From Candidatus Zixiibacteriota bacterium (GTDB lineage: Bacteria > RBG-13-66-14 > B26-G2 > WVWN01): 5,102 nucleotides of DNA. Below, in pieces: positions 1-4,982 of the stretch. Location: contig JAUWLW010000083.1 in assembly GCA_030613505.1 (NCBI GenBank), positions 1 through 5,102 of the forward strand, written 5' to 3'. The notes beneath the pieces were generated by a model, which worked only from the letters and a program-made list of their open reading frames with translations, was not told where the DNA came from and did no database searches. How positions within the stretch are numbered: the stretch's first letter is position 1; every line of letters begins with the position of its first letter. The translations under genes were made by a program, and so were the position numbers.

Positions 1-391
1 CGGTTTCCGGGTTGCCTTCTTCGATTTCCGGGGCAGCGTCCCCGGCTCGAGGTTGTGGCCCACGTCGGGGAGCGGTTATTTTTTCAAGCCGAGCGGCCTC
101 CACGGCCATTGTTGGGTGGAAATAAATATCGGCTGGACTTGTCCTACCACCGCCTTCGTCGCCGCCGAGGAACAATTTTATAATTACCCCAACTGCGACC
201 CTTACGCGGTCGACAACAACACCGTCTTTATGCGCCACTCGTGGCGCTACTTTAACGGCAGGTGGGAACCGATTAGTTTTTCGCCGCCGTATGACGCTTA
301 CCGCAACGTCATGATACGCGTCTTCGTCGACAACGAGACGGTAAACGTTTCGCCGACGAGCTTGGGGCGCGTGAAGGCGTTGTACTACTAA
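1..391 (+). CDS. P1: secreted Trp-rich tandem-array protein, 3' part only
   Basis: This reading frame is open from base 2 to the TAA at 389-391 and gives 129 residues. It is cut by the window edge. Its first visible residues (GFRVAFFDF) align with residues near 101-109 of the complete paralogs, so about 100 residues, including the signal peptide, lie outside the window. A TTG at 53-55 is internal to the conserved domain and is not the real start. The visible half carries the family blocks: VPGS followed by LWP, the NYPNCDPYAVDNN loop, a Trp after the loop (HSW), and the tail PTSLGRVKALYY. It has three visible cysteines (in HCW, WTCP and PNCDP), two of which are absent from most paralogs. Function is unknown; export is inferred from the complete copies. 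It lies 64 bp upstream of P2 on the same strand with no terminator between them. Confidence 0.9.
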   Translation, partial: GFRVAFFDFRGSVPGSRLWPTSGSGYFFKPSGLHGHCWVEINIGWTCPTTAFVAAEEQFYNYPNCDPYAVDNNTVFMRHSWRYFNGRWEPISFSPPYDAYRNVMIRVFVDNETVNVSPTSLGRVKALYY

Positions 392-455
392 TCGCGAGAT
401 AGGGTGCAGGGGTGAGGCCGCGGTTATTCAAGGCCGCCCCAAGGAGGTCGGGGCT

Positions 456-1136
456 ATGAAGTACGTAACGTCATTGGCGGTCGCGACCGCTATAATTGCC
501 GGCGCGGCGTGGGGCGTGGACGTCGTCGTGGAGAGGGCGTCTTACCCTTCGAATATCCCGTCTTCGCCGGCGCACGACATGACGTTGGAGTTGAGGTGGG
601 ATAACGGCTGGGGTATGTGGTGGTATTGCTGGTATACCGGCCGGGGTTACTGGGTGGGCAACGACTTCGATATATCGACCATAAAAACGTTCGGCACCAT
701 AAAGACGATAAAGTTACAATTGCGCAGCAACTGGCCCAACACCGGGTGGGACGGCGTCCGTGCCGGCATCTATGCGTTCGAACGCGTCCCCGGCTCGCTT
801 ATATGGCCCACCGCCGGCGGCCCGTACTTCTTTAAGCCTACGGGCCGAACCGGGTGGCAGGAAATCCCGGTGGCGTGGGTTCTACCGGCGGGCGTTAGGA
901 AGTTCGTCGCCGCCGCCGAACAGTACTACGACTACCCCAATTGCGACCCTTTCCTCATCGACAACAACCCGACGTTTCGGGGTCATACGTGGCATTATCT
1001 GGCCGGGAAGTGGGAACCTTTTTATCACGCGCCGATTGCCCCGTACCGGAACCTGATGTTACGCGTCGTCGTCGGTAAAGAGTCGGTAGCGGTCGCTCCG
1101 ACGAGCCTGGGGCGCGTGAAGGCGCTGTATTATTAA
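456..1136 (+). CDS. P2: secreted Trp-rich tandem-array protein
   Basis: The product has 226 residues. The ATG is chosen because AAGGAGG (441-447) lies 8 nt upstream and the frame opens directly into a signal peptide: K2, a hydrophobic stretch at about 4-18, and probable cleavage after AWG (residue 20). A Pro/Ser linker follows (about 28-42), then one aromatic-rich domain (about 43-212). Conserved blocks include LELRWDNG (44-51), WVGNDFDIS (66-74), WPNTGWDG (93-100), VPGSLIW (111-117), YPNCDPFLIDNNPTF (160-174) and PYRNLMLRVVV (197-207). The tail PTSLGRVKALYY occupies 215-226. I count 14 Trp, about 6% of residues, which is very high and suits a beta-sandwich or ligand-binding surface. Cysteines are C58 and C163, a possible disulfide after export. 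The function is not recognised; a carbohydrate-binding, adhesive or surface-structural role is only inference. P3 follows after 18 bp, which supports co-transcription. Confidence 0.93.
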   Translation: MKYVTSLAVATAIIAGAAWGVDVVVERASYPSNIPSSPAHDMTLELRWDNGWGMWWYCWYTGRGYWVGNDFDISTIKTFGTIKTIKLQLRSNWPNTGWDGVRAGIYAFERVPGSLIWPTAGGPYFFKPTGRTGWQEIPVAWVLPAGVRKFVAAAEQYYDYPNCDPFLIDNNPTFRGHTWHYLAGKWEPFYHAPIAPYRNLMLRVVVGKESVAVAPTSLGRVKALYY

Positions 1137-1154
1137 CCCGGAGGCGAAGAGGAA

Positions 1155-1823
1155 ATGAGACGTATCGTATTATGGGCGGCGGTCGTTGGCCTGGGCGCCG
1201 CGGCGTGGGGTGCGGACGTCGCCGCGGAGGTTGTGTCGTCCGGCGCCGAGGCCGTAGCGTCGCCGGCTTACGACGCGGAGTATGAGCTCAAGTGGGACGA
1301 CGGGCGCCCGACCTGGTTTATGAGTTGGAATACGGGCGCGGGCTCTTGGGTGGGCAACGACTTCGACATTTCCACCCTCGCCACCGGGTGGTGGATTGAA
1401 ACGATAAAGGTTATGTCCGGCGCGAGCTGGCCTAACGGCCGGTGGGACGGCTTCCGCCTCGGCGTCTTCACTTTTTCCGGCAGTCTACCGGGCTCGCGGT
1501 TTCACGGCCCCAGGTTCGTAAGGGGGAGCGGTGCAGGTTATAGGTGGTGCGAGTTTAAATTCGGAATGTGGGAATGGGCGCTCGGCGGCCATAAAAGGTT
1601 CGTAGTAGCCGTGGAGCAGTATTATAACCATCCCGACTGCGACCCGTACGTGCTCGACGGCAATAGGAGGTTCCAAGGGCACTCGTGGCAATGTCAAGGC
1701 GGAAAGTGGGAACCCCTTGTCGGCACAGCAGGGTACTGGAACATGATGCTCCGCGTTGTAATCAACGACACGATGGCCGTCGCGCCCACCAGCCTGGGCC
1801 GCGTCAAGGCTTTGTACTATTAA
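1155..1823 (+). CDS. P3: secreted Trp-rich tandem-array protein, most divergent copy
   Basis: The product has 222 residues. The start is supported by GGAGG (1140-1144) 10 nt upstream and by an immediate signal peptide (RR at 2-3, hydrophobic 4-17, cleavage probably after AWG at residue 19). It has the family layout: linker about 20-42, ELKWDDG (44-50), WVGNDFDIS (65-73), WPNGRWDGFRLGVF (92-105), PGSRF (112-116), the loop HPDCDPYVLDGN (159-170), HSW (176-178), and tail PTSLGRVKALYY (211-222). Of the complete copies it departs most from the consensus. The usual GWTLPSG segment is replaced by KFGMWEWALGG, and DNNPTF is replaced by DGNRRF. It has 16 Trp and three cysteines (C132, C162, C180), an odd number that would leave one thiol free or available for dimers. 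Function is unknown. Its last bases and downstream spacer closely match those of P4, marking a duplication boundary. Confidence 0.92.
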   Translation: MRRIVLWAAVVGLGAAAWGADVAAEVVSSGAEAVASPAYDAEYELKWDDGRPTWFMSWNTGAGSWVGNDFDISTLATGWWIETIKVMSGASWPNGRWDGFRLGVFTFSGSLPGSRFHGPRFVRGSGAGYRWCEFKFGMWEWALGGHKRFVVAVEQYYNHPDCDPYVLDGNRRFQGHSWQCQGGKWEPLVGTAGYWNMMLRVVINDTMAVAPTSLGRVKALYY

Positions 1824-1891
1824 TCGATAAGTATCGCTTTTAAGCGGAGCTTCACGGCACCCAGGGGAAGTTCTATTGTGGAGGTTATAAG
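1824..1891 (+). repeat. 68-bp duplicated intergenic spacer, copy 1 (P3-P4)
   Basis: This spacer aligns without gaps over its whole 68 bp with the P4-P5 spacer, at 60 of 68 positions by hand count. Both start TCGAT directly after the TAA stop, contain GTATCGCTTTTAA and CCCAGGGGAAGTTCTATT, and end in the ribosome binding site and the ATG. The small inverted repeat CGAT-AAGT-ATCG at its start is retained in both copies with a changed loop base. I see no clear promoter or terminator, so readthrough from P3 is likely. The similarity continues into the last bases of the upstream gene. Confidence 0.9.
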
Positions 1892-2560
1892 ATGAATAAA
1901 GTAACGACGTTCGTAGCGCTTGGGCTGGCCATATCGGCCGCGGCGGCGTGGGGCGCCGACCGCGTCGTCGAGCGGGCGGCCTCGGCGCCGGCCGCGCCCG
2001 AGCCGGAGGCCACCGACGACGCGCTGGAGCTCAAGTGGGATTCCGGCTTCACCAGGTGGTGGATGTGTTGGTATACCGGCCGCGACACCTGGGTCGGCGC
2101 CGACTTCGACATATCCACTATCTCGGGCTACCGCGCCTTACACGCCATAAAGCTCCAGTCGCGCTGGGACTGGCCCAACGTAGGTTGGGACGGCTTCCGC
2201 CTTGGCATCTTCGACTTTCGGGGCGGCGTTCCGGGGTCGCTGTTGTGGGGGCCGAAGTTCGTCGTGCCGACCGGCTCGACGGGGTGGAAGGAGTTTTCCG
2301 TGGGCTGGACGCTGCCCTCCGGCGTATACAAGTTCCTGGCCGGCCAGGAGCAATATTACAACTACCCCAACTGCGACCCCTTCGCGTTGGACAACAACCC
2401 GACGTTTAGAGGCCACTCCTGGCAATACCACGGGGGGTCGTGGGCCCCGCTTCAAGGTTACCAAGGCTACCGCAACCTCATGCTCCGCGTCATCCTCAAC
2501 AATGCGACCTTGGCCTTAACGCCCACCAGCATAGGCCGCGTCAAGGCTTTGTACTATTAA
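1892..2560 (+). CDS. P4: secreted Trp-rich tandem-array protein
   Basis: The product has 222 residues. The start is supported by GGAGG (1880-1884) 7 nt upstream and by a clean signal peptide: N2-K3, hydrophobic 4-19, and the AWG cleavage site at residue 21. An Ala/Pro/Glu linker (22-43) follows. The domain shows LELKWDSG (45-52), a W56-W57-M58-C59-W60 cluster, WVGADFDIS (67-75), WPNVGWDGFRLGIF (94-107), VPGSLLWGPKF (113-123), NYPNCDPFALDNNPTF (157-172) and tail PTSIGRVKALYY (211-222). N70 of the usual WVGND motif is Ala here. It has 14 Trp, and its cysteines are C59 and C161. By hand alignment it is about 83% identical to P5, the closest pair in the array. It is two residues shorter than P5 in the loop at about 187-191. 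It is flanked on both sides by copies of the same 68-bp spacer. Function is unknown; export is inferred. Confidence 0.93.
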   Translation: MNKVTTFVALGLAISAAAAWGADRVVERAASAPAAPEPEATDDALELKWDSGFTRWWMCWYTGRDTWVGADFDISTISGYRALHAIKLQSRWDWPNVGWDGFRLGIFDFRGGVPGSLLWGPKFVVPTGSTGWKEFSVGWTLPSGVYKFLAGQEQYYNYPNCDPFALDNNPTFRGHSWQYHGGSWAPLQGYQGYRNLMLRVILNNATLALTPTSIGRVKALYY

Positions 2561-2628
2561 TCGATGAGTATCGCTTTTAAACGGAGCTTCACTGTTCCCA
2601 GGGGAAGTTCTATTAAGGAGGTTATACG
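2561..2628 (+). repeat. 68-bp duplicated intergenic spacer, copy 2 (P4-P5)
   Basis: This is the second copy of the P3-P4 spacer. It differs at eight positions, four of them in the middle (GGCA region) or directly before GGAGG, where this copy has the stronger site AAGGAGG instead of GTGGAGG. The altered Shine-Dalgarno context could give P5 a different translation level from P4; that is inference. No gap is needed in the alignment, so the two duplicated units have kept identical length. Confidence 0.9.
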
Positions 2629-3303
2629 ATGAATAAATTAACGACGTTCGTAGGGCTGGGGCTGGCCATATCGGCCGCGGCGGCGTGGGGCGCCGACTGC
2701 GTCGTCGAACGGGCGGCCTCGGCGCCGGCCGCGCCCGAGCCGGCGGCCACCGACGATACGCTGGAGCTCAAGTGGGATTCCGGCTTCGGCAGGTGGTGGC
2801 TCGTCTGGTATACCGGCCGGGACACCTGGGTCGGCAACGACTTCGACATATCGACTATCTCGGGTTACCGCGCCATACACGCCATAAAGCTCCAGTCGCG
2901 CAACAACTGGCCCAACATAGGTTGGGACGGCTTCCGCCTCGGCATCTTCGACTTTACGGGCAGCGTGCCAGGGTCGCTGTTGTGGGGGCCTAAGTTCGTC
3001 GTCCCGACCGGCTCGAGCGGCTGGAAGGAGTTCTCCGTGGGCTGGACGCTCCCCTCCGGCATATACAAGTTCCTGGCCGGCCAGGAGCAGTTCTATAACT
3101 ACCCCACCTGCGAACCCTTCATGATCGACAACAACCCCACATTCATGGGGCACTCCTGGCAATACATGAGCGGGAGATGGAGCCCGTTCCTACAAACGAA
3201 CATTTTACCGTACCGCAACATCATGCTCCGCGTCATCGTCAACAACGCGACCTTGGCCTTAACGCCCACCAGCATAGGCCGCGTCAAAGCGTTGTACCAT
3301 TAA
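2629..3303 (+). CDS. P5: secreted Trp-rich tandem-array protein, last gene before the first terminator
   Basis: The product has 224 residues. The start is supported by AAGGAGG (2615-2621) 7 nt upstream and by a signal peptide almost identical to that of P4, ending AWG at residue 21. Residues 1-57 differ from P4 at only six positions, including the Ala/Pro linker, which is unrelated in P2, P3 and P6. The domain blocks are present: LELKWDSG (45-52), WVGNDFDIS (67-75), WPNIGWDGFRLGIF (94-107), VPGSLLWGPKF (113-123) and YPTCEPFMIDNNPTF (158-172). The WSPFLQ loop (184-189) resembles P6 rather than P4. The tail ends ALYH instead of ALYY. Cysteines are C24, in the N-terminal linker, and C161. C24 is not in a lipobox context (WGADC), so a lipoprotein is unlikely. 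Function is unknown. It ends 14 bp before a strong hairpin and so probably closes the P1-P5 transcript. Confidence 0.93.
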   Translation: MNKLTTFVGLGLAISAAAAWGADCVVERAASAPAAPEPAATDDTLELKWDSGFGRWWLVWYTGRDTWVGNDFDISTISGYRAIHAIKLQSRNNWPNIGWDGFRLGIFDFTGSVPGSLLWGPKFVVPTGSSGWKEFSVGWTLPSGIYKFLAGQEQFYNYPTCEPFMIDNNPTFMGHSWQYMSGRWSPFLQTNILPYRNIMLRVIVNNATLALTPTSIGRVKALYH

Positions 3304-3317
3304 CGCGACCTGTTTCC

Positions 3318-3348
3318 CCAAAAAGGAGCCGTTTAGGCTCCTTTTTGG
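3318..3348 (+). terminator. Intrinsic terminator after P5
   Basis: A perfect 13-bp stem runs from 3318-3330 (CCAAAAAGGAGCC) to 3336-3348, with a 5-nt loop GTTTA. The stem's 3' arm contains TTTTT (3342-3346), acting as the U-tract, and the matching A-run on the 5' side would serve the opposite strand. It lies 14 bp after the P5 stop and probably ends the P1-P5 transcript. Confidence 0.9.
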
Positions 3349-3382
3349 TATGACCGGGCCCCGCCGACCCAAGTCTTTTTTA

Positions 3383-3411
3383 TTGTCGGACCATTGGAAA
3401 TTTGTTAGCAT
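3383..3411 (+). promoter_or_regulatory. Possible sigma70-like promoter for P6
   Basis: TTGTCG (3383-3388) and TAGCAT (3406-3411) are spaced by exactly 17 bp, each with 4 of 6 consensus bases. They sit in the only clearly AT-rich patch of the P5-P6 gap, just after the terminator, where a P6 promoter would be expected. The predicted transcript start near 3418 gives a leader of about 80 nt. Other hexamer choices are possible, and the host's promoter consensus is unknown. Confidence 0.45.
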
Positions 3412-3433
3412 TATCCCGTTGTTGGGAAGTACC

Positions 3434-3446
3434 TTTTCCGGGAAAA
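3434..3446. promoter_or_regulatory. 13-nt dyad in the P6 leader, possible operator
   Basis: TTTTCCGGGAAAA is a near-perfect palindrome (6-bp arms around one central G), about 16-28 nt downstream of the predicted P6 transcription start. Its position would suit a repressor site. It is a single short occurrence and could be chance. Confidence 0.25.
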
Positions 3447-3458
3447 CCGCGCATAAAC

Positions 3459-3476
3459 GGCGGCCCGCGCGCCGCC
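3459..3476 (+). other. GC-rich leader hairpin directly upstream of the P6 ribosome binding site
   Basis: GGCGGC (3459-3464) and GCCGCC (3471-3476) pair as a 6-bp all-GC stem with a 6-nt loop. The stem ends 6 nt before AAGGAGG (3483-3489). It is not followed by a T-run, so it is not a terminator. It could stabilise the leader or influence translation of P6. In a GC-rich genome such short stems also occur by chance. Confidence 0.35.
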
Positions 3477-3497
3477 TTAAGCAAGGAGGTTTAAGAG

Positions 3498-4172
3498 ATG
3501 GGGAGCAGAACATTTATCGTCGTCTTCGCGGCATTGGCCGCGGCCGCGGCGTGGGCTACGGACCTGGTAGTAGCGCCGACGGCCCCCGCGGCTTCGGGCG
3601 CCCCCTACGACTACTACGACGGGCCTTTGGAGCTGAAGTACGACAGCGGGACGCAGCGGTACTTCATGGCCTGGTACTCCGGCGCCGGCAGCTGGGTCGG
3701 CAACGACTTCGACATAAGCGCCATCTCGGCCTATCGGGCCATTATGAGAGTCAGGTTTTATTCGAGACCGGACTGGCCCAACAGCCGGTGGGACGGTTTC
3801 CGCGTCGGCATCTACGCGTACGCGGGCGGCCAGCCGGGCTCGGTTTTGTGGGGGCCCGAGTACTTTAAACCCGCGAGAGCCAGCTACGGATGGTGCAATT
3901 GCGCCGTCGGTTGGACCCTTCCCGCGGGCAACGACGCGTTCGTGGCCGCGGTGGAACAATACTACAACTATCCCAACCTCGACCCGTTCGCTCTGGACAA
4001 CAACCCGACGTTTAGAGGCCACTCCTGGCAATATTACCGGGGCGTGTGGAGCCCGTTCTTGCAATCGAGTGTTGCGCCGTACCGCAACGTAATGATACGC
4101 GTCGTCGTGAACAACGTGCCGGTAGGCCTTACGCCCACAAGCGTAGGTCGCGTCAAGGCGCTGTACTACTAG
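3498..4172 (+). CDS. P6: secreted Trp-rich tandem-array protein, separate transcription unit
   Basis: The product has 224 residues. The start is supported by AAGGAGG (3483-3489) 8 nt upstream and by a signal peptide: R4, hydrophobic 6-18, probable cleavage after AWA at residue 20. Linker 21-42 is Ala/Pro/Tyr-rich and differs from the other copies. The domain shows LELKYDSG (44-51), WVGNDFDIS (66-74), WPNSRWDGFRVGIY (93-106), PGSVLWGPEYF (113-123), NYPNLDPFALDNNPTF (157-172) and PYRNVMIRVVVNN (194-206). The tail PTSVGRVKALYY is at 213-224. It has 10 Trp, fewer than its neighbours, with Tyr or Phe at several of those sites. The cysteine usually found in the NCDP loop is Leu here, and two cysteines appear close together instead (C133, C135, in WCNC). 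It uses a TAG stop, while the other copies use TAA. It is isolated from P5 by a terminator and a 194-bp gap and is followed by its own terminator. Function is unknown. Confidence 0.93.
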   Translation: MGSRTFIVVFAALAAAAAWATDLVVAPTAPAASGAPYDYYDGPLELKYDSGTQRYFMAWYSGAGSWVGNDFDISAISAYRAIMRVRFYSRPDWPNSRWDGFRVGIYAYAGGQPGSVLWGPEYFKPARASYGWCNCAVGWTLPAGNDAFVAAVEQYYNYPNLDPFALDNNPTFRGHSWQYYRGVWSPFLQSSVAPYRNVMIRVVVNNVPVGLTPTSVGRVKALYY

Positions 4173-4189
4173 CCGACGAGCCGTCAAAT

Positions 4190-4216
4190 AAAAAGGGGCC
4201 GCGAGGCCCCTTTTTT
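4190..4216. terminator. Bidirectional intrinsic terminator shared by P6 and the convergent membrane-protein gene
   Basis: An 11-bp perfect stem runs from AAAAAGGGGCC (4190-4200) to GGCCCCTTTTT (4205-4215), with a GCGA loop. It is followed by TTTTTT (4211-4216) on the plus strand. On the minus strand the same hairpin is followed by TTTTTATTT. It lies 17 bp after the P6 stop and 31 bp beyond the end of the minus-strand gene, so it can stop both convergent transcripts. Confidence 0.92.
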
Positions 4217-4247: not shown

Positions 4248-4982
4248 TCAGTTCGCCACCAGCCGCAGCTTACCCGTGAACGACGGCGCCGCGGCGTAGG
4301 CGTTGTTGGCGTCCGCGACCACCGCCAGCTCGTACTCGCCCTTCTTCTTGGCCTTCACCCGGGCGCGGAAGGCGAAGTACGTGTCCGGGTGCAGCGGCCG
4401 GCCGGTCGGCCAATCCACCGTCACCAGCGTGCCGCCGGGCCGCGGGAACTTCTGCACCGTAGCGCCCGGCGCCTTGACCGCCGCCACCTCCACGTCCGCC
4501 GGGAACGCCACCGTTACCGAGACCCCCTCGGCGCGTCTGAGCGCCGGGGGCGGAGCCGGAGCCGGCTTCTCCTCCGCCGGCGCGCCCTCCTCCTCTACCG
4601 CCTCTTCCTTCCCGGGCGCGGGCGTCTCCGGCGGCGGCGTCACGTTGTAGACGCGCAGTTCGACGTACGTCGCCTTGCCCGCCTTGACCACCTTGCTGTC
4701 GGTGAGCGGCGGCTCCTTCTCGGCCTCGGCCGCCGGGAAGCCCACCGCCAGGTTGTAATCCGGGGCCGCGGCCTCGGCGAACTCGCGCGTCTCGGCCAGC
4801 GCCTCGGCGTCGGCCTCCGCCCCGGCCCGCAGCTCCTCCACGCCGCCGGCCAGCGTGCCGAGCTTCCCCAGCACCAGTACGCCGACGATGACGGCGACTA
4901 TGGCCGCGGCGGTGATTATAATGGCGCAGACGTCGGCGAACTTGGCCAGCGCGGCGCCGGTATCTTCCTCGTGGTGGACCAT
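4248..4982 (-). CDS. Single-pass membrane protein with DUF11-like beta domain split by a Pro/Glu-rich insertion
   Basis: The product has 244 residues. The start is set by AGGAGG (complement of 4990-4995) 7 nt upstream of the ATG. Residues 1-16 are polar and 17-39 form one long hydrophobic segment (AIIITAAAIVAVIVGVLVLG core), most likely an uncleaved membrane anchor. Residues 41-72 are Ala/Glu-rich and may form a short helix or coiled coil. Residues 94-113 (TDSKVVKAGKATYVELRVYN) look like the opening strands of a DUF11-type domain. They are followed by a Pro/Glu/Ala low-complexity stretch (114-148), then the rest of a beta-sandwich (151-232) with the DUF11-like order VTVAFPADVEV, a DW before a PL-x-P turn, FRARVKAKKKGEYEL, and ADANN. 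The match to DUF11 is my reading of the pattern and was not searched. The C-terminal domain is probably outside the cytoplasmic membrane. It is convergent with P6 and shares its terminator. It has its own promoter; no link to the array is proven. Confidence 0.88.
   Translation of the reverse strand: MVHHEEDTGAALAKFADVCAIIITAAAIVAVIVGVLVLGKLGTLAGGVEELRAGAEADAEALAETREFAEAAAPDYNLAVGFPAAEAEKEPPLTDSKVVKAGKATYVELRVYNVTPPPETPAPGKEEAVEEEGAPAEEKPAPAPPPALRRAEGVSVTVAFPADVEVAAVKAPGATVQKFPRPGGTLVTVDWPTGRPLHPDTYFAFRARVKAKKKGEYELAVVADANNAYAAAPSFTGKLRLVAN

Follow-up and report, generated by a model that had tools for sequence, protein, structure and literature searches.

A short C-terminal tail on unrelated exported proteins of several FCB-type candidate phyla, and its probable role as a sorting signal

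Sorting signals have revealed secretion pathways before, and the exosortase/PEP-CTERM system was proposed from a sequence pattern alone (PMC1569441). In the type A C-terminal domains (CTDs) of the type IX secretion system (T9SS), the last 13 residues and the lysines of motif E are needed, and the final 22 residues of the HBP35 CTD are enough for export of GFP (PMC10202324). A near-invariant lysine lies close to the CTD end (PMC10994853). In the T9SS literature covered here, no substrate was found with a signal as short as the C-terminal tail described below.

The window, that is the whole stretch of DNA analysed (5,102 bases), is the entire contig C12 of a genome of 2.86 Mb in 100 contigs. It carries six tandem paralogs on the + strand, here called P0 to P5, every one of which ends in [VL]xPTS[LIV]GRVKALY[YH]. 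The features are listed below.

2..391, + strand: P0, jelly-roll family plus tail, 5'-truncated at the contig start
347..391, + strand: P0 tail, VSPTSLGRVKALYY and stop (14 residues plus stop)
456..1136, + strand: P1, signal peptide, jelly-roll domain, tail
1092..1136, + strand: P1 tail, VAPTSLGRVKALYY and stop
1155..1823, + strand: P2, signal peptide, jelly-roll domain, tail
1779..1823, + strand: P2 tail, VAPTSLGRVKALYY and stop
1892..2560, + strand: P3, signal peptide, jelly-roll domain, tail
2516..2560, + strand: P3 tail, LTPTSIGRVKALYY and stop
2629..3303, + strand: P4, signal peptide, jelly-roll domain, tail
3259..3303, + strand: P4 tail, LTPTSIGRVKALYH and stop
3498..4172, + strand: P5, signal peptide, jelly-roll domain (residues ~44-205, pLDDT ~90), tail
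4128..4172, + strand: P5 tail, LTPTSVGRVKALYY and stop (pLDDT ~45-50, outside the fold)
4248-4982, - strand: protein of 244 residues, without the tail, having a single membrane helix at the N terminus and a linker rich in Ala, Pro and Glu

A preliminary description of this DNA had noted a near-invariant C-terminal tail common to all six paralogs, with codons that vary from copy to copy. Both points were borne out when the ORF ends were checked. The tail is thus real, but its restriction to six paralogs proved too narrow, since it is found genome-wide and in several phyla.

The extent within the genome was assessed using a DNA pattern for G-x-[VI/M]-K-x-[hydrophobic]-[YF], written without any stop requirement. 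This core pattern gave 160 matches in the window genome, compared to 3 for a reversed control pattern. Not all of the approximately 160 matches were examined in sequence: 82 non-redundant ones were, and 79 of these lie exactly one codon before a stop. Because such a large share of the examined matches adjoin a stop, the genome is estimated to contain about 155 tails; we infer some 150-155 tail proteins, which would be around 6% of the genes if gene density is typical. The tail recurs far beyond chance.

The peptide GRVKAL[FY] occurs in 50 copies, written in 33 distinct 21-base DNA spellings. Recent copying is therefore excluded as the main cause, which upholds the earlier suggestion that the tail is maintained by selection at the protein level. 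A broader version of the same objection would reduce the tail to a structural element of the fold, or to a relic of common ancestry, of gene conversion or of gene ends copied recently. Some copying is apparent: window 4132-4215, comprising a tail and the terminator-like sequence downstream, is repeated at 84-88% DNA identity at C41:28811-28893 and 29444-29516 (locus L005), and one of the C41 gene ends is a frame-shifted fusion to the tail, in a different reading frame. Gene ends are thus sometimes copied as a unit. This cannot readily accommodate the 33 spellings of the 50 peptides, nor the occurrence of the tail in 33 unrelated protein clusters and several phyla and its position outside the fold in two models (all discussed below), and we give the objection almost no weight.

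The proteins carrying the tail are diverse. Across all the loci, 125 proteins have both the tail and a signal-peptide-like start, and these fall into 33 clusters (blastp, E 1e-4) with no detectable similarity outside the tail. A search for the tail on proteins of other architectures, as had been proposed, is thus clearly positive. The domains identified include NHL and PD40 propellers, NosD-type β-helix, FG-GAP, DUF642, choice_anch_C, CBM96/DNRLRE, Temptin_C and GDSL lipase. The choice_anch_C, DUF642 and CBM96 models, and an NHL model named for a PEP-CTERM protein, are all found among the tail proteins; these domain types are the ones that have exchangeable surface anchors elsewhere. No Pfam or NCBIfam model is common to more than two of the 33 cluster representatives, and hence none of these models describes the tail.

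The consensus of the tail is V-x-P-[TAS]-[ST]-[LW]-G-x-[IV]-K-[AS]-[LM]-[FY]-[RK]-stop. When the sequences are anchored on the stop and weighted by cluster, the conserved columns are V-14, P-12, [AST]-11, [ST]-10, [LWF]-9, G-8, [IV]-6, K-5, [AS]-4, [LMI]-3, [YF]-2 and [RK]-1. Conservation sets in sharply at about -16, and the column information is close to zero upstream of -18. The columns from G-8 to [YF]-2 were partly preset by the search patterns; in the set from the window's own genome, they left V-14, P-12, S-10, L-9 and the spacing to the stop free.

By a hydrophobicity rule, 157 of the 172 complete tail ORFs have a signal-peptide-like start. For 10 of the 15 exceptions, an in-frame TGA directly precedes the ORF, and the same frame has a signal-peptide-like start farther upstream.

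It is worth describing these proteins separately. At L090:1-7001 (window genome C56:27500-34500), L011 (C7), L081 and L086, tail proteins have an intact signal-peptide start followed by an in-frame TGA. They comprise six tail-bearing paralogs with the sequence GC(TGA), and thioredoxin/Omp28-like proteins with LFTATW(TGA)GYCPYAE or LFSGIP(TGA)[SG]YCHWADEAL. Each has a stable hairpin 3' of the TGA, and an 8-bp stem is common to the GC(TGA) set (RNAalifold -8.4). They are probably selenoproteins that also bear the tail, a proposal whose basis does not include tRNA-Sec or SelB.

Structure predictions were made for two unrelated tail families. For the window family, AlphaFold was run on 31 relatives, and predicts a domain at residues ~44-205 (pLDDT ~90) followed by an unstructured tail (pLDDT 45-50). 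The P5 domain most closely matches the lectin-like domain of Cwp84 (4d59; Z 17.4, rmsd 2.6 over 157 residues, 13% identity), Cwp84 being an S-layer-associated protease, and the next matches are jelly-roll proteins, including carbohydrate-binding modules. In the AlphaFold model of the second family, the domain has a pLDDT of ~95 and the tail 38-45, with a short helix at 205-210 for which the pLDDT is only ~40. In both families the tail is therefore a low-confidence segment following a complete domain, which favours a free extension over a last strand. The tail could have been dismissed as part of the fold had it been restricted to one family and buried as a strand; neither holds, because it is found in 33 clusters and is unfolded in the two models. 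The tail's hydrophobic moment has maxima near 115 and 180 degrees, neither exceeding permutations, and for this reason no claim is made about its secondary structure.

The preliminary description had linked the tail to uncultivated FCB-type bacteria. When 84,980 species were scanned blind using a longer pattern, the link was confirmed: the pattern matched 39 stretches, where by our own estimate only ~0.1-0.3 would be expected by chance, and all the records are labelled Coatesbacteria, Delongbacteria, Latescibacterota, Zixiibacteriota or Eisenbacteria, or are unnamed MAGs. The tail is thus lineage-restricted, and spread across several FCB-type candidate phyla. The window genome is congeneric with another genome of the set (G005), whose tail protein is the same as that in Coatesbacteria bin961 (CP070633.1). 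Outside Coatesbacteria, position -9 is mostly W, as in PSTWGxIKAMFR. One Coatesbacteria family lacks the final residue and ends TWGEIKALY-stop, which accounts for the low counts in a first search of the phylum. CP070631.1 was deposited as Latescibacterota; in its GTDB phylum the W form of the tail is present in 76 of 80 genomes, with almost no control matches. The number of tails per genome ranges from a few to more than 100.

One further MAG, WVWN01, deposited as 'Zixiibacteriota A-C077' (L055, L058, L061, L065-L067, L086), contains the protein family of the window. The coordinates of its SprA match are identical to those of the match in G004, which belongs to the same genus as the window genome, and the phylum under which this MAG was deposited looks wrong.

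PDZ domains bind C-terminal peptides with aromatic or hydrophobic ends. The tail might in principle be such a ligand, recognised in periplasmic quality control by a chaperone or protease and with no role in localisation; its position at the chain end, its aromatic/hydrophobic terminus and its flexibility in the models would all suit this. But the tail has 14 conserved residues, including particular P, S/T, G and K positions, which exceeds what a PDZ domain needs, and the tail is lineage-restricted and confined to one class of proteins, those with surface-type domains. We consider such a role improbable.

We conclude instead that the tail is very probably a sorting signal of one kind or another, modular and locked to its position at the C-terminus. 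A sorting or anchoring signal had been suggested previously, and the modularity of the tail and its freedom from the fold support this. The sorting function itself is inferred, there being no secretion or localisation data.

It had also been suggested that the tail might co-occur with a particular secretion system. For the T9SS component SprA the co-occurrence is total. SprA is found in 14 of 14 Coatesbacteria genomes, in all 20 of the tail genomes reached from the scan (which partly overlap the Coatesbacteria set), and in every one of 80 genomes from another phylum, so that no tail genome without SprA is present among all the genomes checked for it. SprA is, however, also found in the four genomes that lack the W-form tail. 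With T9SS present throughout these phyla, the co-occurrence does not discriminate. All 14 Coatesbacteria genomes have PorV-family matches (6-14 per genome), together with 23-67 canonical CTD matches per genome; PorV copy number bears no relation to tail number in Coatesbacteria.

Of 21 loci, only 2 place tail genes next to sprA, and both belong to the genus of the window: two tail genes adjoin sprA in the window genome, and three are near it in one close relative. No such linkage is present in the 19 other loci, some of which are short. In the window genome the locus is on C76 (L193:3797-11797), where two tail-bearing NHL genes stand upstream of sprA on the opposite strand, and downstream of sprA come two genes, one ExbB/TolQ-like and one ExbD-like, named from sequence reading only, which are perhaps the motor of the T9SS.

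Our working hypothesis, which we hold to be somewhat more probable than its competitors but far from established, is that the tail is read by the type IX machinery; T9SS-dependent secretion is itself an inference. The protein would enter the periplasm by the Sec route using its N-terminal signal peptide, a step supported by sequence. It is then predicted to fold into autonomous, mostly β-rich domains, with the last 14 residues left as a flexible peptide. An outer-membrane receptor may then read the chain end by way of [LW]-9, G-8, [IV]-6, the invariant K-5, [LM]-3 and [FY]-2, and the protein would be translocated or fixed at the cell surface. The likeliest reader is inferred to be SprA with a PorV-type shuttle, for which the tail would serve as a minimal substitute for the type A CTD.

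It is also possible, as a more tentative proposal, that the signal is read by a different machine altogether: a translocon of the outer membrane or a processing enzyme, in either case undescribed, or else a scaffold or polymer on the surface to which the peptide would bind, so that the protein is held on the cell much as a dockerin or an S-layer anchor would hold it. Within one genome, canonical CTDs and the tail are both present but on separate proteins, the CTD proteins examined ending in motif E and never in the tail. The tail motif is unlike motif E, linkage of tail genes to sprA is not consistent, and the number of tails varies widely without a matching change in the numbers of CTDs or PorV. 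No candidate machine has been identified, though, and every tail genome examined has T9SS. Were it nevertheless correct, which we regard as a minority possibility, the tail would mark a secretion or surface-anchoring pathway of its own across FCB candidate phyla, with an undescribed machine and, in Coatesbacteria, more cargo than the canonical CTD.

If type IX does read the tail, then the tail shows the minimum requirement of that system; if not, a new machine remains to be found. In either case the tail is a practical predictor of the surface proteome for several uncultured phyla. Among open-licence PMC papers we found no description of the tail motif, and nothing relevant on secretion in Coatesbacteria or Latescibacteria.

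The tail can be compared with several known C-terminal signals. It shares with LPXTG/sortase the logic of a C-terminal surface-sorting signal, but the LPXTG motif (0 of 125 tail proteins, last 45 residues) and the hydrophobic segment are absent, and sortase belongs to Gram-positive cell-wall chemistry. Substrates of T1SS have a C-terminal signal and no cleavable signal peptide; this system was ruled out, signal peptides being present. The signal of outer-membrane β-barrels for BAM is likewise read at the chain end, with an aromatic residue near the terminus, but the tail proteins tested are soluble propellers, β-helices and jelly rolls, and the tail is not a strand. PEP-CTERM/exosortase (PMC1569441) and GlyGly-CTERM/rhombosortase (PMC3237569) resemble the tail in that a short C-terminal region is found on many unrelated exported proteins of one genome, with the same choice-of-anchor domains. 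They differ in having a transmembrane helix before a basic end, whereas no C-terminal transmembrane segment was found in the 125 tail proteins (17-residue window, mean hydropathy >=1.6, in the last 45 residues). The T9SS type A CTD (TIGR04183 / PF18962) is similarly C-terminal, on Sec-exported modular surface-type proteins of the same genomes, with a near-invariant Lys near the end and a basic final residue. None of the 33 representatives matched TIGR04183 or a type A CTD (NCBIfam families shown, E<=1), and there is no sequence match between the tail and motif E. The lack of LPXTG, PEP-CTERM and T9SS CTD features noted in the preliminary description therefore stands. The type A CTD spans ~70-80 residues, which fold into an Ig-like domain carrying motifs A-E, and it ends here in motif E (VYTYRLEAGG...KRMVVVR or similar). 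The tail, by contrast, has only 14 residues, is unfolded, has another motif and is carried by other proteins. We are thus confident, though short of certain, that it is a C-terminal sorting signal not previously described, and one that is covered by none of the public models tested.
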